Shown here: piece after piece, positions 1 through 35,974 of the stretch
How the letters are laid out: each line of letters opens with the position of its first letter
Position numbering within the stretch: position 1 is the stretch's first letter
NCBI GenBank assembly: GCA_016870915.1
Contig: VFZY01000042.1
Coordinates: forward strand, 1-35,974
Direction: 5' to 3'
Origin: Acidobacteriota bacterium
Lineage (GTDB): Bacteria > Acidobacteriota > Terriglobia > Bryobacterales > Bryobacteraceae
DNA: 35,974 bases
The notes under the pieces: generated by a model
What the model was told of the DNA's origin: nothing
What the model saw: the letters and a program-made list of their open reading frames with translations, nothing else
Databases searched by the model: none
Position numbers and translations under genes: made by a program

Positions 1-60
1 GGGAGAGGTGTCGAAAGAACTGCTGGAAACAGGCATGTTGTCAGTTTTCGTTTTTGTGCG

Positions 61-159
61 ATGGTCGAAAGAAGCCATCCGCAGGCACTGGCCCGCCCTC
101 GGAAAGGGGATTCTGATCAAATCCGGCACGGGAGTGAGGCGTTGGTGTAGACTGTTGGG
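61..159. repeat. Left copy of a 99-bp direct repeat
   Basis: Bases 61-159 match 35876-35974 with two mismatches: position 150 is G here and T in the right copy, and position 156 is T here and C there. The first 89 bases are identical. Homology starts abruptly at ATGGTCG in both copies, because the flanking bases 44-60 and 35859-35875 differ. In this copy the repeat ends 46 bases before the start of a TonB-dependent receptor gene and contains its probable -10 box. I saw no terminal inverted repeats or transposase, so this is not obviously a mobile element. Confidence 0.95.
148..153 (+). promoter_or_regulatory. Candidate -10 box of the first TonB-dependent receptor gene
   Basis: TAGACT lies about 52 bases upstream of the receptor start. 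The same position in the right repeat copy reads TATACT, the better match to a sigma-70 -10 element. No convincing TTGACA-like -35 is seen at 16-18 bases. This is an inference from sequence only. Confidence 0.4.
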
Positions 160-205
160 GTCCGGGAGACCCAAAATGGAAATCCCGGAGAAAAGGGGTT
201 GTTGC

Positions 206-3200
206 ATGCGATCGATCCAAATCCTTTCCCTCATCCTTCTCAGCAGCGCGAGCCTCCGGGCGCAAACGGCGACATCTCAGATTTCCGGCGTCGTCCGGGA
301 CGGCTCTGGCGCGGTAGTACCCGCCGCCACGGTCACGCTCACGCACGAATCCACCGGAGTGGCGCAGAAGCAGGACACCACGGAAGCCGGCGTCTATGCC
401 TTCCCGGCGATCAACGCCGGTACGTACACGCTGCGTGTTGTGGCCAACGGCTTCAAGGCTGCTGTGCGCACGGGCGTTTCCGCGCTGGTGAACTCACCCG
501 TTGCGCTCGATTTCACGCTTGAGGTGGGCGCGGCCACGGAAAGCGTCCAGGTGAGCGCCTCGGCCGAACTGATCCAGACGTCGAACGCCACGATCGGCAA
601 CGTCGTCGAACAGAAAGCCATCGTCAACCTGCCGCTCAACGGCCGCAATCCTCTCACGCTGATCATGTTCGAACCGGGCGTCACGCAGCGCAGCGGCAAC
701 ACAGTGAATGTCAACGGCGCACGCTCGACGGCCGTGAACGTCACGATCGATGGCATCGACGCCAACGAAAGCACCAACCCGAACCCCACCAACAACGTCT
801 TCCGCCTGAACCCGGACAATGTGCAGGAGTTCAAGGTGACGACCAACAACCCCACGCCCGAAGAAGGCCGCAATTCCGGCGCCAACGTCTCCATTGCCAC
901 GCGTTCCGGCACCAATCAATTTCACGGTACGCTGTTCGAGTTCTTCCGCAACACCGCCCTGAACGCACAGGATTTCTATTCGAGTGCACAGGGCGCTCCC
1001 AAACCCATCATCCAGTTGAACCAGTACGGCCTGGAACTGGGCGGCCCCATCCGCCGCAACAAGACCTTTTTCTTTGTCAGCTGGCAAGGCCAGAAGGTCA
1101 ACTTCGCCGACCCGGTGGACAAGGCTTTCGGCGAATCCGTGGATCTTTACACGCCCAGTGCCCTGAGCGGGGCCTTCCGGTACTGGGTGAACGACCCTCG
1201 CACGCCATTCACGCTCAACGGCGTGCGTGTCACGCAGAATTCGCCCAATCTGATCAACCCGGCCACGGGCGGCCTGGCCTCGGGGGTCCGGGCCTGCACT
1301 TCGCCCGGCGATTCCAACTGCGTGGCCACGTTCAACATCTTCACGGCGGACCCGCTGCGCCGCGGCCTGGACTCCGCCGTACGCGGCGTCCTGGGCAGGT
1401 ATCCGGCGCCCAACTCGATCAACAGCGGCGATGGACTGAACACCGGCGGATTCCAGTGGAACACCCCGTTCCGTGTCCGCGGGCCTCAGGGCATGGCCCG
1501 CATCGACCATACGATCAACGACAAGCACTCTCTGTTCGCCCGATGGCTGGGCGCGGAGCAACAGACGCTGGGCGGCGACCCGATCAATAGCCGGCCGGTG
1601 GTGCTTCCAGGCTTTCCTCCACGGGGGGAAGTCTTCCGGCCAGCGCTCAACGTGGCCGTGGGGCTGCGCAGCGTGCTATCGCCGCGCCTGGTCAACGAAC
1701 TTACGCTCGGCTATTCGCGGTGGAGCTTCCTGTTCACGCAGGGTGAAGCCAATCCCGCGTTTCCAAACTCGCCGCGCTTCACCTTCAACAATTCGGACGT
1801 TGATTACACCGCGAACCCGCGTACTTTCCGTGCGGTCAACACGCCGCAGATCGTGGAGAACCTGAGCTACCTTTCCGGGTCCCACGTCATGCGTTTCGGC
1901 GCGAACCTCCGCTTCTACCAGCACAACGACCAGCGCGGCGACGTGGGCGGCACCAGCCTCACTCCGGCCATCACGCTTTCCCGCACAACGCGGCCGCCCT
2001 CGGGTTTCACGCTCCCGGCGCTTGCCACGGCCACCACACCGGGAATCGCCGCGGTCGATCTTAACCGGCTTCAGGGCGCCATCAACGATCTGCTGGGAAT
2101 CCCGGCCGGGCTCACCCAGGTTTTCCTGGGCGATCTGCGCAGTGACACCTTCCTGCCGTTCCGGTCGGGCGAAAAGGCGGTAACGCTTTGGGCCCAGGGC
2201 CAGCGGTCGAAGCAATACAACTTCTTTGCCCAGGATGAGTGGAAATTGCGGCGCAACGTGACGTTGAGCTATGGCGTGCGTTGGGAGGTGAACCCGCCGG
2301 CGACGGAAGCGGGTGGACGGGTTTATGTGCCCAACCGTTCCATTGAAGGCGGCGACGGCCCGGTCACGTTCGTCAAAGCTGACCGGTGGTACCGCAACTT
2401 CAACTGGGGCGCGGTTGCTCCGCGCCTGGGGATCGCGTGGTCGCCTGGAAGCTCGGGCCGGATGGTGGTTCGCGCGGGCTATGGCACAGCGTTCGACGCA
2501 CTCAACTCGTTCCAGGTGACTTCGGTGGCGGCATCGGTTCCCGGGCAGAACTTCCGTTGCAGCTCCCAGTTTTCAGGCGCCGGCGGAGCGATTGTGACCA
2601 CGCAAGGCTGCCAGGCCGTCACGAACATCCGGCTGGGCGACGGCTTCCCGAACGAGATGGCCCCGCCCACCGTAAAGCCCTCCACGTTCCTGACTCCCCC
2701 GGCCCAGGTCTCGGCGAACGCGGCCCCGGTCCGCGTGTTCGATCAGAACCTGAAGATGCCCACCGTGCACCAGTGGAACCTCACCCTGCAGCGCGAGTTG
2801 GGGCAAGGCTACGTCGCCTCCGCCGCCTACGTCGGGCGCCGCGGCACGCGCCTCTACCGCGCGCTTGATGTCAACCAGATCGACGTGCGGCCCCTGCTCC
2901 CTTCCTTCGCCGCCATGCAGCGAAACGTGGCCATCCCCGGCTGCCGCCCCGATGGCACGCTGGCTAATAACACGGCGTGCCCCGGTGCGTCCGCCATCCC
3001 CATGATTCAATCCGGGGTGATGACCGCCGCATTCGCCAACGGCGCGGCGTCTATTACGGACCTTAACCAGAACGCCGCGGGCAACATGGGTATGCGCCTC
3101 GAGCAGGCCACACTTGCGGGCCGCCTGCGTCCCAACCCGCAGTTCGCCCAGATCCTGCTCATCGACAACGGCGGCGATTCGAACTATCACGCGGGCCAGT

Positions 3201-4006
3201 TCACGCTGCGCAAGCGTTTCGATCAGGCCGGGCTCCTGTACAACGCGGCATACACCTGGTCTAAGTCGATTGATGTGCTTTCGCTTGACCCGGTGTTGGC
3301 CACGGTGGGCGGCGGCCTCACAACCACGTCCGCCCGCACGGCGGCCGATGCCCGCAATTACCGCAACGAACGCGCCCGCAGTGACTTTGATCAGCGGCAC
3401 GTGATCAACATGACCGGCATCTACGAACTGCCGTTCGGGAAGGGTAAGCGCCTGCTGGCGAATGCTCCACGGGCGGTGAATTTTCTGGCCGGCGGCTGGA
3501 GCCTGAATGGCATCTACACGTTCCAGTCCGGCGAGCCGTTCACGGTCCGCAGCGGCGTGCTGACTCACAACGGCACAGCGCAATCCCGGGCCGCGCTCAA
3601 GCCCGGCGTAGCGCTGCCCAAGGCCAAACTTCAAGAGGTGGGCAACACGACGGGCCCGGTCTTCTTCCCCGATGCTTCGGCCTTCGCGATTCCAGGCCCT
3701 GGAGAGGTTGGCCTGGGCCGCAACCTCTTTCAGGGGCCCAGCTACTGGAACCTGGATGTGGGCATCACCAAGGGATTCCAGGTGACGGAGCGGGTGCGGG
3801 CCGTGTTCCGCACGGAGATGTTCAACGCGCTCAACCACGCCAACTTCCGCAACCCGCGGGATGCCAGCGTCGGCAGCCCGGCCATCACCTCCACCGTCTT
3901 CGCCCAGGCTTGTTGCGTGACGCTTTCCACGGCTGGCTCCGCCACAACGAATCAGAACGGAGAAAGCTGGCGTGTGATTCAGCTTGCCCTGAAGGTGACG
4001 TTCTAG
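206..4006 (+). CDS. TonB-dependent receptor, Oar-like, with carboxypeptidase-regulatory-like N-terminal domain
   Basis: Encodes 1266 residues if started at ATG 206. That start is preceded by a purine-rich AAAAGGGG and opens a clear signal peptide (MRSIQILSLILLSSASLRAQ, likely cut after LRA). The reading frame stays open upstream to position 8, but that extension has no signal peptide and runs through the repeat, so I reject it. Residues about 25-105 form a carboxypeptidase-regulatory-like beta sandwich (SGVVRDGSGAVVPAATVTL). Residues about 110-220 look like the plug (LPLNGRNPLTLI, IDGIDANES). The rest is an outer-membrane barrel ending in aromatic F (LALKVTF). The family imports large substrates across the outer membrane using TonB energy; the substrate cannot be told from the sequence. 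It is convergent with the DUF1501 gene, 4 bases apart. Family confident, substrate unknown. Confidence 0.93.
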   Translation: MRSIQILSLILLSSASLRAQTATSQISGVVRDGSGAVVPAATVTLTHESTGVAQKQDTTEAGVYAFPAINAGTYTLRVVANGFKAAVRTGVSALVNSPVALDFTLEVGAATESVQVSASAELIQTSNATIGNVVEQKAIVNLPLNGRNPLTLIMFEPGVTQRSGNTVNVNGARSTAVNVTIDGIDANESTNPNPTNNVFRLNPDNVQEFKVTTNNPTPEEGRNSGANVSIATRSGTNQFHGTLFEFFRNTALNAQDFYSSAQGAPKPIIQLNQYGLELGGPIRRNKTFFFVSWQGQKVNFADPVDKAFGESVDLYTPSALSGAFRYWVNDPRTPFTLNGVRVTQNSPNLINPATGGLASGVRACTSPGDSNCVATFNIFTADPLRRGLDSAVRGVLGRYPAPNSINSGDGLNTGGFQWNTPFRVRGPQGMARIDHTINDKHSLFARWLGAEQQTLGGDPINSRPVVLPGFPPRGEVFRPALNVAVGLRSVLSPRLVNELTLGYSRWSFLFTQGEANPAFPNSPRFTFNNSDVDYTANPRTFRAVNTPQIVENLSYLSGSHVMRFGANLRFYQHNDQRGDVGGTSLTPAITLSRTTRPPSGFTLPALATATTPGIAAVDLNRLQGAINDLLGIPAGLTQVFLGDLRSDTFLPFRSGEKAVTLWAQGQRSKQYNFFAQDEWKLRRNVTLSYGVRWEVNPPATEAGGRVYVPNRSIEGGDGPVTFVKADRWYRNFNWGAVAPRLGIAWSPGSSGRMVVRAGYGTAFDALNSFQVTSVAASVPGQNFRCSSQFSGAGGAIVTTQGCQAVTNIRLGDGFPNEMAPPTVKPSTFLTPPAQVSANAAPVRVFDQNLKMPTVHQWNLTLQRELGQGYVASAAYVGRRGTRLYRALDVNQIDVRPLLPSFAAMQRNVAIPGCRPDGTLANNTACPGASAIPMIQSGVMTAAFANGAASITDLNQNAAGNMGMRLEQATLAGRLRPNPQFAQILLIDNGGDSNYHAGQFTLRKRFDQAGLLYNAAYTWSKSIDVLSLDPVLATVGGGLTTTSARTAADARNYRNERARSDFDQRHVINMTGIYELPFGKGKRLLANAPRAVNFLAGGWSLNGIYTFQSGEPFTVRSGVLTHNGTAQSRAALKPGVALPKAKLQEVGNTTGPVFFPDASAFAIPGPGEVGLGRNLFQGPSYWNLDVGITKGFQVTERVRAVFRTEMFNALNHANFRNPRDASVGSPAITSTVFAQACCVTLSTAGSATTNQNGESWRVIQLALKVTF

Positions 4007-4010
4007 CGCG

Positions 4011-5543
4011 TCAGGCCAGAATGTTCCGGACAACGCGGGCCGGTTCCACGCCGGTCAAGCGTTGGTCGAGCCCCTGGAACCGGTAAGTGAACTTTTCATG
4101 GTGCACGCCGAAAAGATGCAGCAGGGTTGCCTGCAGGTCGCGCACATGCACCGGGTCACTCACAATGTTGTAGGAAAATTCGTCGGTCTCTCCATGCACG
4201 GTGGCGCCCTTGATGCCGCCGCCGGCCAGCCACAGTGAGAAGCAGCGCGGGTGGTGATCCCGGCCGTAATCGGTAGCGGTGAGTTTGCCCTGCGAATAGA
4301 TAGTGCGGCCAAACTCGCCGCCGAAAATCACCAGCGTATCGTCGAACATACCCCGCGATTTCAGGTCCTGCACAAGGCCAAACACAGCCTGGTCGACATC
4401 CTTGCACTGGCTGGGCAACACTTCCGGCAACTGCCCGTGCACATCCCACCCGCGCTGGTACACCTGAATGAACCGCACGCCGCGCTCAGCCAGACGGCGC
4501 GCCATCAGGCAGGTGTTGGCGAACGTGCCAGGCTTCTTGGCCTCTTCACCGTACAACGAGTAGGTGGATGCGGGCTCTTTGGAAAGGTCGGTCAGTTCCG
4601 GCACGGAGGTTTGCATTCGGAACGCCATCTCATACTGGGCGATGCGAGCCAATGTTTCGGGGTCGCCGGTCTGCTGGTGCTGAATCTGATTCATTTCGCC
4701 CAGGGCGTCCAGCATCCGGCGCCGCACCGGGGACGGCACGCCATCCGGGTTGTTCAGATACAGCACGGAGTCCCCCGAGGACCGCAGCGCCACGCCGGCA
4801 TACTGCGCCGAAAGAAATCCCGCGCTCCAGAGCCGGGCGGAGATGGCCTGCACGTTGGCCCGCGGATGGCTGTGGCTGGCATGCAGAACGACGAAGGACG
4901 GCAGATCCTGGTTCATGCTTCCCAGGCCATACGAAGTCCAACTGCCGATGCAGGGCCGCCCCGCGATCATGCTGCCTGTCTGCATGAACGTGATGGCGGG
5001 CTCATGGTTGATCGCCTCTGTGTTCATGGTGCGTATCAGGGCGATGTCGTCGGCCATGCGGCCGGTGTACGGAAGCAGTTCCGAAAGTGCCATGCCGCTC
5101 TTGCCGTGCTGCTTGAACTGAAAGACGGAGGGTGCAATGGGAAAACGGCTCTGGCCTGAGGTCATGGTGGTGAGACGCTGGCCACGCCGGATGGAGTCCG
5201 GCAGGTCCTTGTCGAACCAGTCCTTCATGCCCGGCTTGGGATCGAACAGATCGATCTGTGGCGGGGCTCCCACCAGATGGAGGTAGATGCATCTCTTCGC
5301 CTTCGGGGCATGATGCGGCAGCCCTGGTTGGCCGCCAATGGCTTCGCCCCTGGTGGCCGCCGCTTCGCCCATCAGGGAAGCCAGGGCCAGGCCGCCCAAG
5401 CCACGCGCTGAACGTCCGAAGAACTGGCGGCGCGTTTCGGCCGCCACCGTCTCCTCAATCAGCCGCTGAGGCAGGTGCCGCGCCAGCCGGCGCGCCGCCG
5501 GAGTGATCTCATCACCGTGAAGACCGGAATTTTCGTTGTTCAT
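4011..5543 (-). CDS. DUF1501 protein, Tat-exported
   Basis: A 510-residue protein of the DUF1501 family (alkaline-phosphatase/sulfatase-like fold, function not established). A twin-arginine leader is visible around residues 38-57 (RRQFFGRSARGLGGLALASL), so export in folded form is likely. The leader is preceded by about 37 residues, which is long but common in this family. Family hallmarks present are LHLVGAPPQIDLFDPKP near residue 90, GGEFGRT and DYGRDHHPRCFSLWLAGGG in the C-terminal third, and a closing LLHLFGV block. It lies 9 bases downstream of the DUF1549/DUF1553 gene on the same strand, the usual pairing of these families in Planctomycetes and Acidobacteria, and is almost certainly co-transcribed with it. 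The role is unknown; a periplasmic hydrolase acting with the partner is a guess. Confidence 0.9.
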   Translation of the reverse strand: MNNENSGLHGDEITPAARRLARHLPQRLIEETVAAETRRQFFGRSARGLGGLALASLMGEAAATRGEAIGGQPGLPHHAPKAKRCIYLHLVGAPPQIDLFDPKPGMKDWFDKDLPDSIRRGQRLTTMTSGQSRFPIAPSVFQFKQHGKSGMALSELLPYTGRMADDIALIRTMNTEAINHEPAITFMQTGSMIAGRPCIGSWTSYGLGSMNQDLPSFVVLHASHSHPRANVQAISARLWSAGFLSAQYAGVALRSSGDSVLYLNNPDGVPSPVRRRMLDALGEMNQIQHQQTGDPETLARIAQYEMAFRMQTSVPELTDLSKEPASTYSLYGEEAKKPGTFANTCLMARRLAERGVRFIQVYQRGWDVHGQLPEVLPSQCKDVDQAVFGLVQDLKSRGMFDDTLVIFGGEFGRTIYSQGKLTATDYGRDHHPRCFSLWLAGGGIKGATVHGETDEFSYNIVSDPVHVRDLQATLLHLFGVHHEKFTYRFQGLDQRLTGVEPARVVRNILA

Positions 5544-5552
5544 CGCCGTCCC

Positions 5553-8500
5553 CTATTTCGCCAGTACTTCATCCAGATTCATGAACTGATTCGACAGCAT
5601 GGTCAGCGCGGCCAGTGGCACGTTGGGCAGCTTGCCGTCCACGGCGATTTCGCCGGCGGCCAGCAGTTTCCGCGCATCTTCCTGGTTACTGTCGTAGTGG
5701 CGCAGGAAATCCACATAGGCGCGGCGCGCCACATCGCGTTCGCGGGCGGCGAGCGGCCGCGCCAGCAACCGCTCCGCGATGGTGCCGATCTGCCTTTCCA
5801 CATCGCCCGGCGCCGCCTGCATGGCGCTCTCGGCCAGCCGCCGCGCCGCTTCGACGAACTGGACATCGTTCATGGTGACCAGCGCCTGGAGCGGCGTATT
5901 GGTGCGTTCACGCCGCACGGAACAGTTTTCGCGCGTGGGCGCGTTGAAGATCTCCATGGCGGCCGGCGGCGCGCTCCGCTTCCAGAAGGTATAAAGGCTG
6001 CGGCGGTACAACTTGTCGCCTTCATCGCGCTTGTAGAAACGCGTGTTGCTGCCCAGCATCGCCACCGCCTCCCATACGCCTTCCGGCTGATATGGCTTCA
6101 CGCTTGGACCGCCCAGCCGCGGCGAAAGCAAACCCGCCGAGGCCAGTGCGTAGTCACGGATCATCTCGCCATCCATCCGGAACCGTGGGCCGCGCGCCAG
6201 CAGCTTGTTCTCCGGGTCTTCCTTCAACTTCTTCTCCGTTGCCTGCGCCGACTGGCGGTAGGTGGCGGAACTCACCATCAGCTTGAAAAGCCGCTTGACA
6301 TCCCAGCCTGATTCCCGGAAGTCCACCGCCAGCCAATCCAGCAGTTCGGGATGCGTCGGCGCGGTCCCCTGGGAGCCGAAGTCCTCAGAGGTCTTGACCA
6401 GGCCTGTCCCGAACAACTCCTGCCAGAAGCGGTTTACCGTGACGCGGCTTACCAGCGGATTGGCCGGGTCCACCAGCCACTGCGCCAGCCCCAACCGGTT
6501 GCGAGGCATCGACGCCGTCATGGGGGGCAGCACGGAAGGCACGGCCGGCTCCACCTTGTCCCGGGGCTGATCGTACATGCCGCGATAGAGGATGTGGGCC
6601 ATCGGCTGCCGGTCCGATCGCTCCTGCATCACGTGCGTGATCGCGCCCCGCCGCCGCATCGCCCGGCGCTCATCGCGAAGCGCCGCAAGCTGCCCCACCA
6701 GGGCCCGGTACGGCGCGTCCTGCGTGTTCAGATAGTGCAGAAGCAGCGCTTCCCGTTCGCTCGCGTTCAGCGCTGGTGCGGCTTTCTCCCGGGAGGCCTC
6801 CAGCTGCGCCCACTGGCCGTCCAGGCGGGCTTCCTCCGCGCTCAGAATGCGGTTGTAGATGCGCAGTTCGGCCAGCGCGCCCCCGGCGAGGCCGCGCGTG
6901 GAATCGTGGCCCAGCCTGAGAGGCTGACCATTGTTGATCGAGCCCTTGAGAACGATCATGGAATCGCCGCCTTGGGCCAAGGCTGTCTTGCCATTCACCA
7001 GCAGCGTCATGCCGGGCTGTTCCCGCGTTCCATCATAGGTGGCTACAACGTGGTTCCAGGTGCCCGGCTTCAACTGCTCCAGGTGCCCGGCGCGAATCTG
7101 AATGGACCGCCCGTCATCCGCTGTGATCCTCAGCGCGATCACCCGGCCCAGCACTTCCATCACCCACCCGCGGCCCTTGTCTTTTCCGTCGGATTGGCTG
7201 GCCACAACATAGGCATCGTCCCCCTTGGGCATCAGAAACAGAGCCGATACCGAGAACGGCTTGCCTGCATCCACCGCCGCGACGTTGGGCAGTTCGATGC
7301 CCGTCTTGGCTTCAAAGTGGACCGCTTTGCGTTCCGCCTCGCGCCCCGCACCTAGCTTCGTGCTGGCGGCCAGGGTCACCGACGCCGGGTCCAACGAGTA
7401 CACCTGCGCGGCGGCATCCACCGGCGCTTTGATATTGCGGCGGCCCGTGCCGTCAAGCCATGACGCAAACTCAGCCGGCCCGGCGGCGCGCCGTGCGTCC
7501 ATGCGGGCGTGCGCCGCCTGCTCATCTTCGGCCAGGCGGCTCCAGCGCGGACGGTCTTCGTCCGACGGCACCACGATCACCGGTGGCGTGTCGGGAATGT
7601 TCCCGTCCATGGCGTTCTGCGTGGTATTCCTGAAAAACGCCGCCATGGAGTAGAAGTCGCGCTGGGCGATCGGGTCAAACTTGTGATCGTGGCAGGTGGC
7701 GCAGCCGACGGTGAGGCCGAGGAAAACCGTGCCCGTCGTGTCCACCCGATCCTTGGCGTAGATCGCCTCCACCTCATCGATGATCACGCCGGCTTCGTTG
7801 GTGGTTACATTGCAGCGATGGAACCCCGAGGCGATCTGTTGATCGAGCGTCCGGTTCGGCAACAGATCGCCCGCGATCTGCTCCACCGTGAACTGGCTGA
7901 ATGGCATGTTGCCGTTGAACGCCTTGATCACCCAGTCGCGGTAGGGCCACATTTCGCGGTAGTTGTCGACATGAATGCCGTGGGTGTCGGCATAGCGCGC
8001 CGCGTCCAGCCAGTAGCGCGCGCGGTGCTCACCCCATCGCCCGGACGCCATCAGGCGATCGACATACCGGTCGTAGTAGTCCTTCGACTGGTCGTTGACA
8101 AAGGCTTCCACATCGGCCGGCGCGGGCGGCAAACCGGTAAGATCCAGAGCCAGGCGCCGCGCGAGCGTCCGGCGATCGGATTCCGGCGCCGGAGCCAGCC
8201 CCGCCGCCTCCATGCGCGCCAGCACGAACCGGTCAATGGCATTGCGAACCCATTCCGTATTCTTCACGGGCGGCAGCGGCGTGCGCACCGGGGTCTTGAA
8301 CGCCCACTGTTCCTGCCACTGAGCTCCCTGCTCGATCCACCGCCGGACCACGTCCTTTTCCGCATCGGTCAAGGTTTTGTGCGAGGCAAGCGGCGGCATC
8401 CGCAGTCCGGTGTTTGGATGGTTGATGCGCTGCCAAATTAGACTCTTGTCAGGGTCGCCGGGTGTGACAGGAAGGCCCGCCTTGCGCGTCTCAGCAAGGC

Positions 8501-8747
8501 CTTCGCGTGTATCCAGCCGCAGCCCCGCCATGCGTGTCTGCGGATCAGGACCATGGCACGCAAAGCAGTTGCCTGAAAGGAACGGCCGCACTTCACGCTG
8601 GAAGTCCACCGGTTTGCCGGCCGGCTTGCCGGCAGTCTTCGCAGCGCTGCGGACCACGGGTTTCGCGGCGACGCCTTGGGACTTCTGGGCGGAGGCAGCC
8701 ACATAGACGAGGGCTCCGCAAGTGATTACGATCAGGACACGCGACAT
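5553..8747 (-). CDS. DUF1549/DUF1553 protein with planctomycete-type cytochrome C domain and inserted LamG-like domain
   Basis: Encodes 1064 residues from ATG 8747, chosen because it opens a signal peptide (MSRVLIVITCGALVYVAASA). The 54-residue upstream extension in frame is arginine-rich and unlike a leader. Domains in order: an Ala/Lys/Pro linker (about 23-47); a PSCyt1-type cytochrome domain with heme motif CFACH (C61, C64, H65); DUF1549 (about 140-350) with a second CxxCH, CATCHDHKF; a concanavalin/LamG-like sandwich (about 430-640; VASQSDGKDKGRGWVMEV, LAELRIYNRILSAEEARL); and DUF1553 (about 710-1040; NPLVSRVTVNRFWQELFGTG, NAPTRENCSVRRERTNTPLQ). Probably an exported, heme-carrying protein; the LamG part suggests carbohydrate binding. 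First gene of a two-gene operon with the DUF1501 gene at 4011-5543. Function uncharacterised. Confidence 0.92.
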   Translation of the reverse strand: MSRVLIVITCGALVYVAASAQKSQGVAAKPVVRSAAKTAGKPAGKPVDFQREVRPFLSGNCFACHGPDPQTRMAGLRLDTREGLAETRKAGLPVTPGDPDKSLIWQRINHPNTGLRMPPLASHKTLTDAEKDVVRRWIEQGAQWQEQWAFKTPVRTPLPPVKNTEWVRNAIDRFVLARMEAAGLAPAPESDRRTLARRLALDLTGLPPAPADVEAFVNDQSKDYYDRYVDRLMASGRWGEHRARYWLDAARYADTHGIHVDNYREMWPYRDWVIKAFNGNMPFSQFTVEQIAGDLLPNRTLDQQIASGFHRCNVTTNEAGVIIDEVEAIYAKDRVDTTGTVFLGLTVGCATCHDHKFDPIAQRDFYSMAAFFRNTTQNAMDGNIPDTPPVIVVPSDEDRPRWSRLAEDEQAAHARMDARRAAGPAEFASWLDGTGRRNIKAPVDAAAQVYSLDPASVTLAASTKLGAGREAERKAVHFEAKTGIELPNVAAVDAGKPFSVSALFLMPKGDDAYVVASQSDGKDKGRGWVMEVLGRVIALRITADDGRSIQIRAGHLEQLKPGTWNHVVATYDGTREQPGMTLLVNGKTALAQGGDSMIVLKGSINNGQPLRLGHDSTRGLAGGALAELRIYNRILSAEEARLDGQWAQLEASREKAAPALNASEREALLLHYLNTQDAPYRALVGQLAALRDERRAMRRRGAITHVMQERSDRQPMAHILYRGMYDQPRDKVEPAVPSVLPPMTASMPRNRLGLAQWLVDPANPLVSRVTVNRFWQELFGTGLVKTSEDFGSQGTAPTHPELLDWLAVDFRESGWDVKRLFKLMVSSATYRQSAQATEKKLKEDPENKLLARGPRFRMDGEMIRDYALASAGLLSPRLGGPSVKPYQPEGVWEAVAMLGSNTRFYKRDEGDKLYRRSLYTFWKRSAPPAAMEIFNAPTRENCSVRRERTNTPLQALVTMNDVQFVEAARRLAESAMQAAPGDVERQIGTIAERLLARPLAARERDVARRAYVDFLRHYDSNQEDARKLLAAGEIAVDGKLPNVPLAALTMLSNQFMNLDEVLAK

Positions 8748-8751
8748 GGCC

Positions 8752-8757
8752 AGGATA
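8752..8757 (-). promoter_or_regulatory. Weak candidate -10 box before the DUF1549 operon
   Basis: TATCCT on the minus strand ends 4 bases before ATG 8747. GATACA lies a little further upstream and would give a leader of roughly 15 bases. The 85-base gap 8748-8832 holds no other feature I can support. No clear Shine-Dalgarno sequence is visible. Confidence 0.2.
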
Positions 8758-8832
8758 CCTACTGTATCCAGTTTGCACCAGGAATGCGCTGCGTGCTCCC
8801 GCGTAGAAACGGGGGCCACCCTGCGATCATGT

Positions 8833-9201
8833 CTATCTGAGAGGCAAGAGGCGGACCCTGAATGACCGGCGATTGGCCGAGACGACGGCTCCCGCCGCCA
8901 GCAAAGCATCGCAACGCGCGCAGATCGAGGTGATCAAGTCCGCCTGCTCCGCTGTGGTCAGCCCTTCGATGCGGAGAAGAATGACAGATGGCCGGCCCTG
9001 GCCAGTAATCGCCAAATGAGCGTGGAAATCGTGATCCAGGGTCACGCAAACGCGGTCCTGAAGCCGGGCCGCGGCCATGATGTCCGAATCTTCCGCTCGA
9101 TCCAGACCGATTTCCATGACGTGGATCGTGTCAAATCCCTGCTGCCGTAGGATTGCCGCCGCACCCGGCGCGAGGCCCTGGTCAAGCAGGAGCGCGATCA
9201 T
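8833..9201 (-). CDS. DUF5615 PIN-like toxin of a type II toxin-antitoxin pair
   Basis: A 122-residue protein matching the DUF5615 (PIN-like, VapC-related) pattern: N-terminal ALLLDQGLAPGAAAILRQQG, central DSDIMAAARLQDRVCVTLDHDFH with conserved acidic residues, then a GRPSVILLRIEG strand. These acidic positions are those expected to hold a metal ion in a PIN-like nuclease. Length is normal for the family. Its ATG overlaps the stop of the DUF433 gene by 4 bases (ATGA), so translation is probably coupled. DUF433-DUF5615 pairs are a recognised putative toxin-antitoxin module; nuclease activity here is inferred from the family. Confidence 0.85.
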   Translation of the reverse strand: MIALLLDQGLAPGAAAILRQQGFDTIHVMEIGLDRAEDSDIMAAARLQDRVCVTLDHDFHAHLAITGQGRPSVILLRIEGLTTAEQADLITSICARCDALLAAGAVVSANRRSFRVRLLPLR

Positions 9202-16460: not shown

Positions 16461-18122
16461 ATGCTCAGCAACCTTGCCGTCGCCGCCGCGCTATTGGCGC
16501 TGTCGATCATTGGGTTCGTTCAGTACCCCGGCCGCGCCTGGTTGAGTTCCGACACCCAGATCTACATCGCGGTGCTTGAGCACCTGTTTGACCGCGGCGT
16601 GCTCGCGCGCGACCTGTTGGCCTCCGGCGCACACGTCTCATTCACCGCGTACGACGACATCGCCATCGCACTGCGGCGCCTGACCGGGCTTAGCTTTGAA
16701 ACGGTGTTGATGGCGCAGTTGTTCCTTTTCCGGGTGACACAACTCACCGGAGCCTGGCTGTTTGCCACCGGGGCCGGGTTGGGCCGCGTGCAGGCCATTT
16801 TCCTCACCTCTGTCTACGCCCTCAACTCCTGGATTCTCGGTCCGTCGGTGATCAGCTTTGAAGTGGAGCCCATACCGCGAGGTTTCGCCACCGCCTGCGC
16901 GGTGCTGGCCATCGGGCTCATGGCCCACCGGCGCTACGTAGCGGCCGGGTGCGCGGCTGCGTTGGGTTTCCTCTACCATGCCCCAGCCGTGTACATGCTG
17001 TGGGCCGGATGGCTGGTGGTGTGCCTGACACGAGGCGACCGGTCGCGATGGCGGGCCTTCCTGCCCCTGGGCGCTGCGGTGCTGGTGCTGGGTGCGCTGA
17101 CGGCCGGCCAGACCGGAGTGGTTGAACGGCAGCCGTTCTTCAGCCGCATTGAACCCGAAGTCGCCGAACTGCAGCAGATGCGCGCGGTTTACAACTGGAT
17201 CTCGCGCTGGCAGCCGGGCGCCATTCCGAACTACCTCATCCTGGCCGCCGTCACCGCTCTTGCGCTGCTGCGGCTGCGAGGCGTGCTGGGGCATGAGATT
17301 CGCTGGCTCGCCGGTACGATGACCGCCGGGGCGCTGTTGACCATGCCCCTTTCTTACCTTCTGCTGGAACAGTGGCGCTGGGCGCTGGTGCCGCAAGTTC
17401 AGCCCATGCGCGCGCTTCTCTTTGTGGTGCTGTTCGCGGTGCTCTTGGCGCTGGTGGCCGCATTGCGCGCCGGTTCGGTCTGGGAGGCTATTGGTTGGTT
17501 GATTGTTCCGTTCGCGCTGCCGTTGAGCCAGATGCGGCTCACCACGCTTGCCACCAGCGCCGCCGATCCAGTGTGGCGAACGCGGCTGCTCCTGGTCTGC
17601 GGCCTGGCAGCCGTTTGCGGCACTTGCCTTTGGCTGAGCGTGCGGCTGGGCCGGGGTTGGAAGCCGTGCCTCCCGCTCGCCGCGGCCATCGCTTGCGTCA
17701 TCTGGGGCTGCTGGCTGATCCCGTTGCACGGAGGAATCCGCTTCCTGGCGCGCCTCAAGACAGACGATGTGGCCGCGCTGGCGGCGTGGGCACGCGCCGG
17801 CACCGCCCCGGAGGATATCTTTCTGTTCCCACAGGCGCGGGAAGGCCTGCACCCGGGTCTCTTCAGGGCCTTCGCCTTGCGCCCGGTCTACGTGGATTGG
17901 AAATCCGGCGGACAGGTGAACTACTTCACGCGATACTCAAAGGAGTGGTGGAACCGGTGGCGCGAGACCATGGCGGCGCCGTTCGCGGGCGGCTCGACAC
18001 GGCCGCTCGCCGAACGGGGCATCCGGTATCTGGTGTTGGAGAAGGACACCCCGGTGACCGATGCGCGGTTAGTCTACAGCAACGCTGTGTACAAGGTCTA
18101 CGATCTGCTGCCCGGACGCTGA
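16461..18122 (+). CDS. Multi-pass integral membrane protein (glycosyltransferase-C-like topology)
   Basis: A 553-residue protein with about ten to twelve hydrophobic segments, starting with NLAVAAALLALSIIGFV. The first periplasmic loop carries SSDTQIYIAVLEHLFDRG, including an Asp in the place where GT-C mannosyl/arabinosyltransferases keep theirs, and the C-terminal part is soluble (DVAALAAWARAGTAPEDIF, RYLVLEKDTPVTDARLVY). This resembles DUF6798-type and other lipid-linked-sugar transferase-like membrane proteins, but no family is certain. The ATG directly follows the TPR stop, and its TGA overlaps the probable CTG start of the receptor gene. Proposed role: envelope polysaccharide or glycolipid assembly (inference). 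Confidence 0.75.
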   Translation: MLSNLAVAAALLALSIIGFVQYPGRAWLSSDTQIYIAVLEHLFDRGVLARDLLASGAHVSFTAYDDIAIALRRLTGLSFETVLMAQLFLFRVTQLTGAWLFATGAGLGRVQAIFLTSVYALNSWILGPSVISFEVEPIPRGFATACAVLAIGLMAHRRYVAAGCAAALGFLYHAPAVYMLWAGWLVVCLTRGDRSRWRAFLPLGAAVLVLGALTAGQTGVVERQPFFSRIEPEVAELQQMRAVYNWISRWQPGAIPNYLILAAVTALALLRLRGVLGHEIRWLAGTMTAGALLTMPLSYLLLEQWRWALVPQVQPMRALLFVVLFAVLLALVAALRAGSVWEAIGWLIVPFALPLSQMRLTTLATSAADPVWRTRLLLVCGLAAVCGTCLWLSVRLGRGWKPCLPLAAAIACVIWGCWLIPLHGGIRFLARLKTDDVAALAAWARAGTAPEDIFLFPQAREGLHPGLFRAFALRPVYVDWKSGGQVNYFTRYSKEWWNRWRETMAAPFAGGSTRPLAERGIRYLVLEKDTPVTDARLVYSNAVYKVYDLLPGR

Positions 18123-21100
18123 CGCTCGCCGTTGCCCTGGCGCTCACCGCCCGGGGCCAATCCACCCAGGGTCTGGTGGCCGGACGCGTCACGGACGCAG
18201 GCACCGGGACTCCCGTAGCCGCCTCCACCGTCCGCTACTTCCAACTGGAGACCAACACATCTGGCCTGGTGCGCGCCTCGCCGGCCGGCCGGTTCGTGAT
18301 CCTGCTGTTGCCGCCGGGGCGATACCGTCTGCGGGCTGAAGCCGCGGACTATCAGCCCCAGGAAGTCTTCGAAATGCGCGTGCCGGTGGCCGGGCGTCTG
18401 GATGTGGTGTTTCGATTGCGCCGCCGGTCCGATGTGTGGAATGACCGCCGGTACAGCGGCGGAGCGCCTGGCCAGAATCAACCCGTGGTCACTTTCTACG
18501 GGCCCGATGTCGATACCAGCCGGCGGGCTTCCTTCGCACCGCCGCCCTCCGAGCAGGGCGCGCTCGAAGCCACGCTTTCCACCGTGGTGGACCCTGTGGC
18601 GATGCGAGACCTGCCGCTGGCCGGCCGCGATGCCTACACCGCGCTGCTGGGCCAGCCCGCTGTCACCACGGAAACCGGCACATCGCGTGGACTCGGCTTG
18701 AGCGCCAACGGCCAACGCGCCACCTCCGCCAATTACCTTCTGGATGGCGTCGAGAACAACAACTACCTCGCCACCGGAGCGCTGGCCGCCGTGGCTCCGG
18801 AAGCGATTCAGGAGTACCGTGTGTCCATCTCGAACTTCGCCGCGGAGTTCGGCCGCACGTCGGGCCTGGTGGCTAACGCCGTCACGCGGTCGGGCGGCGC
18901 GGGCTGGCACGGCATCGGCTATCACAACTTTCAGCACAAGCTGCTGGGGGCAAACAGCTTTCAGGGCAACCTGCGCGGCTCGCCGCGGCTGGATTTTCTG
19001 GAGAATCAGAGCGGCGGGCAACTGGGCGGCGCCCTCAGGTCAGGGCGGCTGTTCGCCTCGGGCGCTTTCGAAACTCTGGACCAGCGCGGCCGGACGGAGC
19101 CCTTTCCGGTCACCTTGCCCAGCACCGCCTTCCGCTCCTTCACAGCACCCGGCAGCGTGGCCCGTCAACTCATCGACCGCTTCCCCGCGCCCGCCGCCGC
19201 CAACGGCGCCTTCCCCGTGGCCGAATACCTGTTCGCTCCCCGCACGGCGGTCACCCGGCGGCTGGGACTGGCCCGTGTGGACCTCCGCCGGGGAGAATCC
19301 CAGTGGATGGGGCGGTTCGCGGCGGGCTCGCTCGATCTGCCGGAACTCTTTCCGTCTCCCTACCCCGACTTTGTCACCGGCGCGCGCCAGCGCACCGGCT
19401 CCGCGGCCGTGGCGTGGCAGAAGAATCTCGGCGCCAGGACCGCCGCCGAGGTGCGGGCCGGCTGGGGCAGCTACTCGCTGGCCTGGGAACGCCCCCATCC
19501 TGAGATCCCGCTGCTGTCTGAGCGCAGTTTTCAGACCTGGCTTCCGGGTAACCCGTTCTTCTTCGAACTCGACCACGGGGCGCGCCACGGCGAACTCTCG
19601 GGCGCCATCTCGAAGGTGGCCGGCCGCCACATCGTCAAGGCCGGCGCGGGCGGACTCTGGCGCCGCACCGGAGGTGCCCTGGCGCCGGGCGGCAGCGGGC
19701 AGTACCTGTTCCTGGACATCATCGACTTCACACAGGACATGCCGACGTTCCTCTATGCCCCCTCGCGCAAGAGAGCGCTGCCGCGCTATGAGCCGCCCGC
19801 TCACGCGCGGAGCTATGCGATGTCCCAGTATCATGCCTTCGCCCAGGACACGCTCCGGCTCACCCCCCGGCTCGCCGTGAACCTCGGCCTGCGCTACGAC
19901 TACTTCGGCCCCCCGCGCAACCGCGGCACTGTGCAGGATTCCTGGATTCGGGGCGGCGTCATCGTTCAGGCTCCGCCATCAGCCCCGCTCTGGGCGCCTG
20001 ATCGCAACGGAGTCTCCGTGCGCGCGGGGCTCTCGTATCGGCTTTCGGAAAAGCGTGGTCTGCTTCTCCGCGCCGCTGGGGGCACCTTCACGGACCGCGT
20101 CTTTGATACATACTGGTTGGGCGTTCGCAACAATGACTACGGCCAGACCAGTTTCCTCCTGCCGCGCCAGCCCATCAATTACCTCACCGGCATCGCGAGT
20201 CAGGCTGCCCGCGCCCAGGAAGCCAGTCTGGACCCGAACTTCCCCCGATTCACCGTAGTCGACCAGCGACTGCGCGACCCCTATGCCATCAGCTTCCTCG
20301 GCGGCGTGGAAAAAGCGGCCCCACGCGGCTGGACCGTGCAGTCACTCCTGCTCGGATCCCTGGGACGCAAGCTCCCGGTGACCGACCAGGTAAACCGCGA
20401 TCGCGCCTCCGAACCCAAGCGCGAGTTCCCAACTCTGCCCGACCTCTCCTATCGGGGCAATCAAGGCCTTTCGAACTACTACGCCTGGGTGACGCTCGCC
20501 TCGTGGGCTCATCGCCGCGGGCAGGCACAAGTGGCCTACACGTGGTCGAAGCTCATCGACACCCAGAGCGACCCGGTGGGCGAGGATCTCTTCAGCACCA
20601 GCTTCGCCCGAGTTACCTCCGGGCGCATCCCGGACTTTCCGGGCTTTGCCCGCGCGCGCGACAGCCGCGGCGAACGGGGCCTGGCCGATTTCGACCAGCG
20701 CCACAACCTGGTGGCGATGGCCGTCGCCGAGCCCGGCCTCTGGATTCGTCCGCTCCGTGGCTGGAAGGCCGCAATCATCGGAGCCGCCCGCGCCGGATTT
20801 CCCTACACGGTCTTTGGCCCCAACACAATCGAAGTGGGACAGGGCGTCACGCTGAATAACCGCGCGGACCTGACGGGCGCCGCGCCGCGTGTCAACCGCC
20901 CGGCCGCCGGAGGGCGTCTGCTGCTGGACCGTACCGCTTTCCGTGAACCGGCGGGCCGCGTGGGAACGCTGGGCCGCAATGCCTTCGTGGGACCGGGACT
21001 CTACAGCATGGACGTTTCGCTCAGCCGCGAAATCCAGTTGCGCGAACGGCTGCGGCTGGCGCTGCGCGCCGATGCCTACAACGTGCTCAACCACACCAAC

Positions 21101-21253
21101 CTGGGGCAGCCCGATGCGAACTTCAGCCACGACAATCCGCGCTTCGGTGTCGCCACCTTCGGCCGCACCGGGCGCCAGCAGGGCATCGCGTCGCTCACAC
21201 CCCTTGGCGATACGCCGCGCCGCATTCAGTTGATTGTCCGCCTGATGTTTTGA
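18119..21253 (+). CDS. TonB-dependent receptor, Oar-like, probable CTG start
   Basis: About 1044 residues. Domains: carboxypeptidase-regulatory-like (about 18-100; GLVAGRVTDAGTGTPVAAST), plug (about 150-270; RDLPLAGRDAYTALLG, LDGVENNNYLATG) and a barrel ending QLIVRLMF. The frame is open from 17372, but there it is a shadow of the membrane protein gene. Just upstream of the first domain the translation is LTLAVALALTARGQ, a signal-peptide-like core with no ATG, GTG or TTG before it. CTG 18119 is the only NTG, and it overlaps the upstream TGA (CTGA). A GTG at 18176 would start inside the first beta strand with no signal. A start via CTG or a sequencing error are the main alternatives. The substrate is unknown. 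Confidence 0.82.
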   Translation: MTLAVALALTARGQSTQGLVAGRVTDAGTGTPVAASTVRYFQLETNTSGLVRASPAGRFVILLLPPGRYRLRAEAADYQPQEVFEMRVPVAGRLDVVFRLRRRSDVWNDRRYSGGAPGQNQPVVTFYGPDVDTSRRASFAPPPSEQGALEATLSTVVDPVAMRDLPLAGRDAYTALLGQPAVTTETGTSRGLGLSANGQRATSANYLLDGVENNNYLATGALAAVAPEAIQEYRVSISNFAAEFGRTSGLVANAVTRSGGAGWHGIGYHNFQHKLLGANSFQGNLRGSPRLDFLENQSGGQLGGALRSGRLFASGAFETLDQRGRTEPFPVTLPSTAFRSFTAPGSVARQLIDRFPAPAAANGAFPVAEYLFAPRTAVTRRLGLARVDLRRGESQWMGRFAAGSLDLPELFPSPYPDFVTGARQRTGSAAVAWQKNLGARTAAEVRAGWGSYSLAWERPHPEIPLLSERSFQTWLPGNPFFFELDHGARHGELSGAISKVAGRHIVKAGAGGLWRRTGGALAPGGSGQYLFLDIIDFTQDMPTFLYAPSRKRALPRYEPPAHARSYAMSQYHAFAQDTLRLTPRLAVNLGLRYDYFGPPRNRGTVQDSWIRGGVIVQAPPSAPLWAPDRNGVSVRAGLSYRLSEKRGLLLRAAGGTFTDRVFDTYWLGVRNNDYGQTSFLLPRQPINYLTGIASQAARAQEASLDPNFPRFTVVDQRLRDPYAISFLGGVEKAAPRGWTVQSLLLGSLGRKLPVTDQVNRDRASEPKREFPTLPDLSYRGNQGLSNYYAWVTLASWAHRRGQAQVAYTWSKLIDTQSDPVGEDLFSTSFARVTSGRIPDFPGFARARDSRGERGLADFDQRHNLVAMAVAEPGLWIRPLRGWKAAIIGAARAGFPYTVFGPNTIEVGQGVTLNNRADLTGAAPRVNRPAAGGRLLLDRTAFREPAGRVGTLGRNAFVGPGLYSMDVSLSREIQLRERLRLALRADAYNVLNHTNLGQPDANFSHDNPRFGVATFGRTGRQQGIASLTPLGDTPRRIQLIVRLMF

Positions 21254-23847: not shown

Positions 23848-26235
23848 TTAGTGATTGTAGATGAATTCCCGGGAGTTCAAAAGGGCCCAGAACACGTCTT
23901 CCAGACCCCGGTGTCCGCGCTTTTCCGCCTGTTCGAGCGCCAGGCGCCGCTCACCGGCATCCGGCGGGCGGGAGACGGTGCGCAGGTAAAGTTCGTCGAT
24001 GACGTCGCCGGCGGGCCGTCCTTTGGCCTTGGCCAGGAACCCTCCGGAATTGGTGATTTTCTTCTGAATGGTGTCGCCGCTGATCAGGTGCAGAGCCTGA
24101 TTGAGCGTGGGCGGCTGCTTCCGTTCGCAGACAATCTGGCGGCTTGGCCGGTCAAACACCTCAAGGAAGTAGGACTCGATTTCGGGCTCAGGCAATTGGG
24201 AGGCTCGGGTTCCCGGATAGAGCGATCTGTATTCTTCCGGCACGCCCGTGGCCTGCGCGATGGAATCCAGCAGTTGCTCCGCCGAAAGGCGCCGCGCGAA
24301 GTAGCGTGAGTAGGCCATGGTGTCGCCTTCACTGCCCGGGGCTGGGGTGCCTGAAAGCTGGTACGCCCGCGAGGCGGTGATCACCCGGATGAGGTGGTGG
24401 AGATCGAAACGGTGAGCGATAAAGTCCTTCGCCAGCGCGTCCAGCAGCGGGGCGTTCGATGGCGGGTTCGTTTCGCGGAAATCGTCCACGGGCTCAACCA
24501 GCCCACGTCCCATGAAGTTGCGCCACATGCGGTTGACGATGGCCCGGGCAAAGAACGGATTCCCGGGCGAGGTCATCCAGTCGGCAAGCAGTTCACGCCG
24601 GTCCGTCTCGTTGCCGGGTGCAAGCACCGGGTCTCCCAGCGGTTTGGGTTGAAAAACCTGCTTGGTGTCGGGATGCGAGAATTGGCGTGCGAAATCGACG
24701 TAGAGCACGCGTTCGTTGTTGCGGGGGCCGGTGCCGTTCTTGTACCTCACCTGGGAGAAGAATGCCGCCATGCCGCTGAAATCGCCCTGGGTCCACTTCT
24801 CCAACGGATGGTTGTGGCAGCGGGCGCATTCGATGCTGATGCCCAGAAAAAGCTGGCTGGTGACGGCAGCCATATCCAATTCCTTTTTCATCAGAGGGTA
24901 GTAGCTGGTGGCAGGAGCGTCGAACATGCCGCCGGATGATGTGAGCAGTTCCCGCGCGAACACGTCATAGGGCATGTTCTTCCGGAAGCTCTCATTCAGC
25001 CACTGGGTGAACGTGTAGGGACCCTTGTTGTAGAGAAGCTGCTTGGTGTTGCTGAGATGGTCCCCCCAGTAGAGTGACCAGAAATCGGCATATTCGGGGC
25101 GCATCAGCAGCTCGTCCACCTTGCGCGCGCGCTTGTCCGGGCGGTTGTCCGCAAGGAACGCACGCACTTCGTCCGCTGCCGGAATCAGGCCCGCGATATC
25201 CAGCGAAGCCCGGCGCAGAAAAGTGGCATCGTCACAAAGCCCGGCGGCGGGAATTTCGAGCTGGCGCAACTTGGCGAACACATGCTGATCGACGAAGTTG
25301 AACCCGGCCACCTGCGGCACGGCTCGACGCTTTGTCACCACGCCAATCTTGGCGGCCGCGGCCAGACCCGGACCCCGCACCACGACAGCCGTTTCGCCGG
25401 CGCGCCCCGCGGTGACCACACCCATGGCATTCACCTTGGCGATGGACTCATCGTTTGACTGGAATTTCACCAGACGGGTGACGTCGCGTTCGCTGCCATC
25501 GGAGAAACGCGCGGTGACAAGCATGCCGCGCTGAGCTTCGGCTCCCACCAGCACGGCGCTTCCGGGCGCGATGCGGAGGGCGGTCATGCGGGGTTCCCTG
25601 GCCGCATCCATCCGGGCGCCTTCGGCAATCCATCGCAGCAGCGTCCGGTAATCGTCGCCATCCGGTGCCAGCAGTTTGCCGCCGCCGTGCTTCACCGCGA
25701 AGGTGGGCTTGCGAAGCAACAGGCTCTGGGCGGGTTCCTTGAGATTGACACGGCGGCCATCGTTCTTCCGGACGATGGCCTCATGATCCAGCGTGGGCTC
25801 GTAGCCAAACAGGGAGAGCTTGAAACCGACCTGTCCGTTCAACGCACCGTGACAACTTCCCCCGTTGCAGCCGTACTTGGTGAGCACCGGAAGAACATCA
25901 CCGTGAAACGTCAGGGGAAGCGCCGCGCCGGCCCACTGCACCAGCGCCGTGGTGGAAGCGGCAAGGCCGTTCCAGGAAGCCGCGATCTCGGCGCCGCCGT
26001 CAGACTGGGCAATAATCGCTCCGTCCGCCACGCTGGCCACCGCCGGCTTCCGGGAGGCAACCGTCGCCTTCTCCGTCACATCCTCAACCCGGCCGTCGCC
26101 AAAGTGCGCCGTGACTCGTAGGGCCTGCCGCGACCCCTTGCCGAACAGAAGCGGGTTCTCCGGCGAAATCTCAATGCGTGCCGGCGCGGCGCCCCAAAGA
26201 GCGCCGGCCAGCAGAAGGCCAGTCCATCTTGTCAT
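23848..26235 (-). CDS. DUF1549/DUF1553 protein with N-terminal Ig-like domain
   Basis: A 795-residue protein with signal peptide (MTRWTGLLLAGALWGAAPA). Residues about 20-100 form a bacterial Ig-like (Big_2) domain (RVTAHFGDGRVEDVTEKATV). A cytochrome-like segment follows with CNGGSCHG (C123, C128, H129), a CX4CH spacing rather than the usual CxxCH but typical of this subfamily. A second Ig-like block sits near 215-300 (VTARFSDGSERDVTRLVKF). DUF1549 covers about 320-490, ending in CARCHNHPLEKWTQGDF, a CxxCH. DUF1553 covers about 550-790 (NPFFARAIVNRMWRNFMGRG, DRPSRQIVCERKQPPTLNQA). Unlike the 1064-residue homologue at 5553-8747 it has no LamG insert. It is 20 bases after the PPC gene and 6 before the DUF1501 gene, within one operon. 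Likely periplasmic or surface; function unknown. Confidence 0.92.
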   Translation of the reverse strand: MTRWTGLLLAGALWGAAPARIEISPENPLLFGKGSRQALRVTAHFGDGRVEDVTEKATVASRKPAVASVADGAIIAQSDGGAEIAASWNGLAASTTALVQWAGAALPLTFHGDVLPVLTKYGCNGGSCHGALNGQVGFKLSLFGYEPTLDHEAIVRKNDGRRVNLKEPAQSLLLRKPTFAVKHGGGKLLAPDGDDYRTLLRWIAEGARMDAAREPRMTALRIAPGSAVLVGAEAQRGMLVTARFSDGSERDVTRLVKFQSNDESIAKVNAMGVVTAGRAGETAVVVRGPGLAAAAKIGVVTKRRAVPQVAGFNFVDQHVFAKLRQLEIPAAGLCDDATFLRRASLDIAGLIPAADEVRAFLADNRPDKRARKVDELLMRPEYADFWSLYWGDHLSNTKQLLYNKGPYTFTQWLNESFRKNMPYDVFARELLTSSGGMFDAPATSYYPLMKKELDMAAVTSQLFLGISIECARCHNHPLEKWTQGDFSGMAAFFSQVRYKNGTGPRNNERVLYVDFARQFSHPDTKQVFQPKPLGDPVLAPGNETDRRELLADWMTSPGNPFFARAIVNRMWRNFMGRGLVEPVDDFRETNPPSNAPLLDALAKDFIAHRFDLHHLIRVITASRAYQLSGTPAPGSEGDTMAYSRYFARRLSAEQLLDSIAQATGVPEEYRSLYPGTRASQLPEPEIESYFLEVFDRPSRQIVCERKQPPTLNQALHLISGDTIQKKITNSGGFLAKAKGRPAGDVIDELYLRTVSRPPDAGERRLALEQAEKRGHRGLEDVFWALLNSREFIYNH

Positions 26236-35600: not shown

Positions 35601-35636
35601 GGCCCGGTAACTCCTCAATGCCGGGTCTACCGGGCC
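35601..35636. terminator. Inverted repeat between convergent genes, possible bidirectional terminator
   Basis: GGCCCGGTA at 35601-35609 pairs perfectly with TACCGGGCC at 35628-35636 across an 18-base loop. It lies between the end of paralogue C (35565) and the stop of the minus-strand small gene (35627-35629), which falls inside the right arm. Only a short pyrimidine stretch follows, so it is not a textbook intrinsic terminator. Confidence 0.45.
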
Positions 35637-35944
35637 TTCTCGATCACCGTGAACTTCGCCGCTTCAGGACCTTCCACCTCGCCCTTCCAGTAATCGAAAT
35701 ACTCCGGCGCCGAACGATAGCCGCCATGCGACTGCACGATCGGTGAGCAATCGGCCAGACGGGTGTTGCCCTTCGTGTTCAACGGATGTTCGGGGCCATC
35801 CAACCCCAGCGCTTTGTCCAACTGGCCGATTGTGAATCCGAACTTAAGGACAGGGTCGTTGGAAGAGTGGAATACATGGTCGAAAGAAGCCATCCGCAGG
35901 CACTGGCCCGCCCTCGGAAAGGGGATTCTGATCAAATCCGGCAC
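35627..35944 (-). CDS. Small protein of unknown function, probably disrupted at its 5' end
   Basis: I do not recognise this protein. The frame reads about 105 residues from GTG 35944, or 88 from ATG 35893; it also stays open to the window edge. The C-terminal part (LKFGFTIGQLDKALGLDGPE, RLADCSPIVQSHGGYRSAPE, YFDYWKGEVEGPEAAKFTVI) has codon use like its neighbours. The N-terminal 23 codons lie inside the direct repeat, use AGA and AGG codons that are rare here, and carry the residues PDLIRIPFPRAGQC. Coding character seems to begin only at about 35850. This suggests a gene whose 5' part was replaced by, or joined to, the repeat, or a shorter gene starting inside it. No signal peptide is visible. 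Confidence 0.45.
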   Translation of the reverse strand: MPDLIRIPFPRAGQCLRMASFDHVFHSSNDPVLKFGFTIGQLDKALGLDGPEHPLNTKGNTRLADCSPIVQSHGGYRSAPEYFDYWKGEVEGPEAAKFTVIEKAR

Positions 35945-35974
35945 GGGAGTGAGGCGTTGGTGTATACTGTCGGG
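35876..35974. repeat. Right copy of the 99-bp direct repeat, running to the window edge
   Basis: Matches 61-159 in the same orientation with two mismatches. It may continue beyond the window. It contains TATACT at 35963-35968 in the place of TAGACT in the left copy, and overlaps the 5' part of the minus-strand small gene. Confidence 0.95.
35963..35968 (+). promoter_or_regulatory. Candidate -10 box in the right repeat copy, pointing out of the window
   Basis: TATACT followed by GTCGGG. The core GTATACTGT is shared with the M48 gene promoter. On the minus strand the same bases read TATACA, so the box is near-symmetric and could fire both ways. By analogy with the left copy, a gene on + may start about 60 bases past the edge. 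Confidence 0.4.

Follow-up and report, generated by a model that had tools for sequence, protein, structure and literature searches.

A direct repeat at both ends of an Acidobacteriota contig belongs to an IS1380-family insertion sequence with right ends in excess upstream of TonB-dependent receptor genes

Why should a nearly identical sequence stand at both ends of one contig, at one of them directly ahead of a TonB-dependent receptor (TBDT) gene? The window, by which we mean the whole stretch of 35,974 nucleotides that was analyzed, is the entire contig C42 of a 6.6-Mb genome in 367 contigs. Its 99-nt direct repeats at 61-159 and 35876-35974, 35,815 bp apart, were re-measured at 97/99 (98%) identity, in agreement with an earlier note on this DNA. 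That note had proposed a genome search with the repeat; when the search was run, the first 22 repeat bases were found at 66 places, while a backward-read control of the same bases gave 0 places in the genome, so the repeat is far beyond chance. The right copy ends at 35974 because the contig ends there. A circular contig or overlap artefact was ruled out, as the left copy begins at base 61 and the right copy has a unique partner contig, C25.

The extent of the repeat was defined by comparison with other contigs. Thirty aligned copies form one continuous sequence that starts within the 3'-terminal part of a transposase gene, continues through its stop codon, and finishes at ...CCCAAAATGGAAATCCCGG, after which the contigs diverge. 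We numbered the 342-base stretch common to the copies as the tail, so that the 99-bp repeat is tail 215-313. Upstream of the left copy, homology runs past base 61 to window base 1; other contigs extend it by another 154 bases, which reach into the terminal part of the transposase gene. The downstream limit is base 188. The sharp left boundaries that had been claimed for both copies therefore stand at 35876, where the claim is true to within one base, and fall at 61, which is no edge of the element. At the right copy, unique hydrolase-gene sequence gives way to the element from 35877, and the A at 35876 is part of a target duplication. Both window ends thus lie inside copies of one insertion sequence. 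A coding role for the repeat was ruled out, as it sits after the transposase stop.

The 99 bp belong, with near certainty, to the right (3') end of an insertion sequence of the IS1380 family. Its left ends start with CCCACATTTCCGTTTTGAG and lead into the transposase start; comparison of CCCACATTTCCGTTTTGAG with CCGGGATTTCCATTTTGGG by eye gave terminal inverted repeats alike at 14/19 positions. The genome's own 97-aa N-terminal transposase piece matched PF13701 above cut-off and, being partial, the NCBIfam IS1380 model below cut-off. The full transposase of a relative (L128, 443 aa) scored 373 bits against NF033539 (cut-off 180) and also matched PF13701. The earlier note had reported neither a transposase nor terminal inverted repeats; both exist, outside the contig. 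Counts across the genome gave 127 left ends (100 of them listed by place) and 94 right ends, from some 130 element copies. A surplus of right ends, as frequent solo right ends would produce, was looked for and the opposite seen. All of the 94 right-end places but one, a divergent right end inside a contig, are at contig ends, which indicates that the element broke the assembly and that a full copy from this genome is absent from it. Its length of ~1.67 kb is therefore taken from a related copy in G070, in which both ends are that far apart. With ~130 copies in the genome, homologous recombination between the two copies in the window, raised earlier as a way to excise or duplicate the block, is nothing special. 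ISEcp1 is a member of the same family. The features are collected in Table 1.

Table 1. Features at the two ends of the window
Feature	Position	Strand	Basis
Right end of IS1380-family element (tail 155-342); remainder beyond contig start	1..188	+	copy alignment
-10-like hexamer TAGACT (TATACT in most copies), putative outward promoter	148..153	+	
Right terminal inverted repeat (IRR) GACCCAAAATGGAAATCCCGG	168..188	+	alignment of ends
Putative target duplication AGAAA	189..193	+	same 5 bases at 1/111 left ends, contig C56 (L158)
TBDT gene, CarboxypepD_reg and OMP_b-brl_4 domains	206..4006	+	domain search
Alpha/beta-hydrolase-like gene, C-terminal part, split by right copy	35627..35876	-	homologues; N-terminal part on contig C25
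Target duplication ATACA (6-base ATACAT if 35877 is included)	35872..35876	+	repeated past fragment on C25
First 98 bases of 127-bp fragment (tail 216-342), right end only; last part on C25	35877..35974	+	
-10-like hexamer TATACT of fragment	35963..35968	+	

Target duplications were evaluated by pairing ends across the genome. Each distinct 40-bp flank was counted as one end, which gave 111 left flanks (of 127 ends) and 92 right flanks (of 94 right-end places), with the common flank of C38 and C95 counted once. Among these, 132 left/right pairs agreed in the 5 element-adjoining bases, compared with 76 ± 9 expected from shuffled columns, while agreement in 6 bases was at chance (7 pairs vs 4.6), which indicates a 5-bp target duplication. 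The target consensus is YTNAR, matched in part only by the two duplications of the window. In relatives' copies for which both ends were examined, no matching target duplication was seen. The AGAAA beside the left copy is probably a target duplication, judged from its recurrence at a single left end, where ~0.06 such matches were expected. The receptor ATG follows 17 bp past the intact right end of the left copy; if this end and the C56 end do pair up, the insertion would lie between a TATAGT and the receptor start codon. Elsewhere in the window, a second TBDT-like gene with CarboxypepD_reg and OMP_b-brl_4 domains (17372-21253) has no adjoining repeat copy, a DUF1501 gene stands beside a DUF1549/DUF1553 cytochrome-type gene at 4011-8909, and one more DUF1549/DUF1553 gene lies at 23848-26235.

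The right copy proved to be of a different kind. The minus-strand frame beside it encodes the last ~80 residues of a hydrolase-like protein with matches in 7 others of 150 genomes; two homologues seen in full length have 285 and 271 residues. The hydrolase label is our reading of these homologues, and a Pfam search of the product gave no match. Extension past the right edge of the window, which the earlier note had suggested, could be followed on C25. This contig begins with tail 217-342, then ATACATAGACC, whereas C42 reads ...GGAATACATGGTCG, and the N-terminal part of the hydrolase gene runs on C25 from base 128 onward. Removal of the fragment and one duplication restored the hydrolase frame, giving RVYV-FHSSND compared with RCFVYHSKND in a homologue (L217). 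The presence of ATACA(T) on both sides, together with the in-frame restoration of the gene, argues that a 127-bp right-end fragment inserted here with a target duplication. From sequence comparison, this unit is very likely a transposed fragment and no artefact; the suspicion that the right copy arose in assembly is countered by the matching duplication and the gene continuity on C25, and the suggestion of a non-autonomous element is borne out by a 127-bp mobile fragment flanked by its target duplication. Another apparent pairing, of C25 with C144 by a shared 5-mer and an open frame, was rejected as coincidence, as the C144 flank carries an unrelated receptor.

Could the right copy instead be a full-length copy that later lost its left part, or an assembly chimera? 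Truncated copies do occur: right-end remnants without visible duplication were seen in G023, the left sides of two contigs of the genome itself (C11 and C284) are truncated with no target motif, and PMC9330008 describes a deletion that left an ISEcp1 remnant of ~200 bp with its promoter retained. A deletion, however, would need to have its end point at precisely the former edge of the insertion, and no matching duplication would come from a chimera, whereas ATACA(T) stands at both junctions and excision restores the hydrolase frame where its homologues continue. We regard deletion or chimerism as very improbable. The transposed 127-bp unit resembles MITEs and other non-autonomous derivatives of insertion sequences in being short, in having no transposase gene, and in its parent-type target duplication, but unlike MITEs it has one terminal repeat only, the right one. 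No other of the 66 places carrying tail 215-236 shares the left boundary of this unit, which rules out a MITE family.

Further junctions suggested that the element is flexible in the choice of its ends. The tail is left early on C89 (at 237, then CTTAG), on C261 (at 193, then CTTAT), and on C158 (at 213 or 214, then GTTAC or TTACT). Contigs C95 (L245) and C38 (L232) share the right end and 80 bp of flank, then diverge, with C95 continuing TTTAC, as if one copy took 80 bp of neighboring DNA along. A T-N-A target core is found at offset 0 in three of the four contigs C89, C261, C158, and C95, and at offset -1 in the remaining one. Left partners that agree in 5 bases at offset 0 were found for C89, C261, and C95, without gene continuity to confirm them, and none was found for C158. 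The 127-bp unit demonstrates that the element can use alternative ends to give end fragments; elsewhere in the genome the observation consists of junctions only.

Both similarities to and differences from described elements are apparent. According to PMC3281130, IS1247 of the IS1380 family has 1672 bp, inverted repeats of 16/13, and a 5-bp target duplication, the family criterion being about 4-5 bp. The element studied here agrees with that description in its transposase family, its ~1.67-kb length (from the relative's copy), the 5-bp target duplication, and imperfect terminal repeats, but differs in having ~130 copies in one genome and an excess upstream of TBDT genes. For ISEcp1 and ISPme1, PMC9330008 describes end points that vary, neighboring DNA that is captured, and an outward promoter. 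In common with them are variable ends and 3' remnants and, putatively, flank carried along past the right end (C95/C38) and an outward 3' promoter; in contrast, most of the alternative right ends here (C89, C158, C261) are inside the element, and one fragment combines the regular right end with an alternative left end.

The association with receptor genes was strong statistically in this genome. Of the 92 right ends, 19 lie no more than 300 bp ahead of an intact TBDT start, compared with 7/1500 random points and 4/1500 motif-matched points; without the window's own copy the count is 18/91. In all, 20/92 right ends precede the start of an intact TBDT gene in the same orientation, compared with 18/1500 random and 12/1500 motif-matched points, and 17 of these 20 are at 11-130 bp. 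For left ends the corresponding numbers are 10/111 in all and 8/111 within 300 bp, so that 27/203 ends (19 right, 8 left) lie within this distance ahead of a receptor start. The right ends are directed toward TBDT genes more often than the left ends (19/92 vs 8/111, p 0.0065). When ends that face any gene start are considered, the gene is a TBDT for 20/44 right ends, 6/35 left ends, 9/190 random points, and 4/182 motif-matched points. Proximity was scored with phmmer and the window's receptor as query, so that very distant receptors are missed in test and control sets alike. Gene starts came from our own simple codon-score caller, with no annotation used, and the random points were drawn from 704 kb, comprising 40 contig-interior stretches and the window.

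The 30 adjoining receptors share a median identity of only ~33% over 434 pairs, with 53% as the highest value, and the insertions therefore look independent. This identity rules out duplication of a receptor block. The proposal of a regulatory cassette duplicated together with receptors thus keeps one half, as the link to TBDT upstream regions is genome-wide, and loses the other, as the receptors are diverged while the repeat is nearly invariant. At genes in general, a first set of intergenic ends gave no clear orientation bias (away vs toward, 30 vs 12 for right ends and 23 vs 17 for left ends), and the idea of a general promoter role, not confined to receptor genes, was rejected on this basis.

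Relatives and relics extend these observations. TBDT-facing right ends were found in four further genera: 3/8 in G023, where one TBDT match is weak (22.7 bits), 2/3 in G047, 1/2 in G121, and 1/2 in G128, which is listed in the same family as the source genome. Two of these seven right ends have just 70-72% identity to the tail. None was found among 21 right ends in G009 or at the single right end in each of G017, G054, G070, and G107. Only right ends flanked by 600 bp or more enter this tally, which leaves out 3/43 loci; within it, L036 and L397 have a common flank, and L395 appears to be an orthologue of L400. A related insertion sequence is abundant in G009 as well, yet has no TBDT link there. 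Across 18 relics, tail block 301-307 (GTATACT) was kept in 93% of cells, compared with 29-86% for other blocks, terminal repeat included; gaps were scored as not kept, and the reference row has TATACT. One relic (L041) stops directly after the -10-like hexamer and is followed by AGGAGG and then the receptor ATG.

The explanation that we consider best overall, and hold with slightly better than even confidence, is that the IS1380 right end acts as a promoter donor retained at receptor genes. The element inserts with a 5-bp target duplication and can use alternative ends; its right end would carry an outward promoter near the conserved GGTGTATACT; and insertion ahead of a receptor gene would replace the native promoter, for which the copy would be retained. 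Promoter donation with selection explains the position of the ends, their orientation bias, the lack of an excess inside genes, and the conserved hexamer. A scan of window 1-260 found no sigma-70 type promoter pair, and the promoter is therefore called putative throughout. Against promoter donation, a right-end promoter leaves the excess of left ends upstream of TBDT genes unexplained. The missing TBDT link in G009 and in the four genomes with one right end each, the incomplete fit of both window duplications to YTNAR, and the lack of a clear orientation bias at other genes also count against the overall explanation. We also considered whether TATACT is commoner ahead of TBDT genes; the difference between TBDT-facing ends (13/18) and others (35/68) was not significant (p 0.18).

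The left-end excess is instead what would be seen if the transposase simply preferred receptor promoters as open, AT-rich, or factor-bound targets, the copies having no effect that matters. Target preference also explains the TATAAT-like hexamers near insertions, present at 5/20 TBDT-facing and 8/72 other right ends compared with 0.7% of random and motif-matched sites; their similar rates in both orientations are what AT-rich target choice would give. The element furthermore avoids genes generally, as seen for ends inside ORFs relative to random points. However, TBDT upstream regions free of the element (13) are not richer in YTNAR or TATAAT-like sites than those of other genes (190), and neither the orientation bias between right and left ends nor the conservation of the hexamer in old relics fits targeting without selection. 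On balance we consider such targeting rather unlikely, though it carries appreciable weight. That insertions near receptors merely survive, the receptors being numerous and dispensable, is disfavored and quite improbable. Receptors are indeed many here, at 20 per Mb in the large contigs sampled and 45 per Mb in the smaller ones, but passive tolerance would give an excess inside receptor genes too, and none was seen for ends at other positions within TBDT genes or antisense to them (16/203 vs 132/1500 points).

Returning to promoter donation, a broader reading is that the IS1380-type element is a spreading promoter cassette that wires many unrelated TBDTs to one common promoter; we put this forward tentatively, at rather less than even confidence. 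It draws on the 27/203 ends ahead of receptor starts in this genome and on right ends ahead of receptors in four other genera, some of which are old relics that preserve the -10-like block. Since fragments with the right end alone are able to transpose, such a promoter could be spread even in the absence of a transposase gene, and the 127-bp fragment, with a target duplication of its own, suggests that the putatively promoter-bearing ends can move by themselves. Activation of single resistance genes by insertion sequences is a familiar phenomenon. If the broader reading is true, an insertion sequence would be building shared control over a gene family, with about one-fifth of its right ends at one class of surface receptor. 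The TBDT link also allows a direct separation of selection from targeting. Regulators and transporters are described as frequent neighbors of insertion sequences in PMC9208149, which contains no word beginning with TonB, and among the titles and abstract beginnings of the matching open-access papers no report linking an insertion sequence to TBDT upstream regions was found.

Several minor features of individual copies were recorded. At L005, a second, degenerate right terminal repeat lies 38 bp past the right end, like a new copy in an older relic. In the related copy L042 (contig C12 of G009), which has both ends, an unrelated frame replaces most of the element's own transposase and, from its sequence, looks like an integrase-type transposase. 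At L052 (contig C315 of G000), a left end of the main element is adjoined by another transposase frame, of 484 aa, which also matches PF13701 but differs from the element's own.
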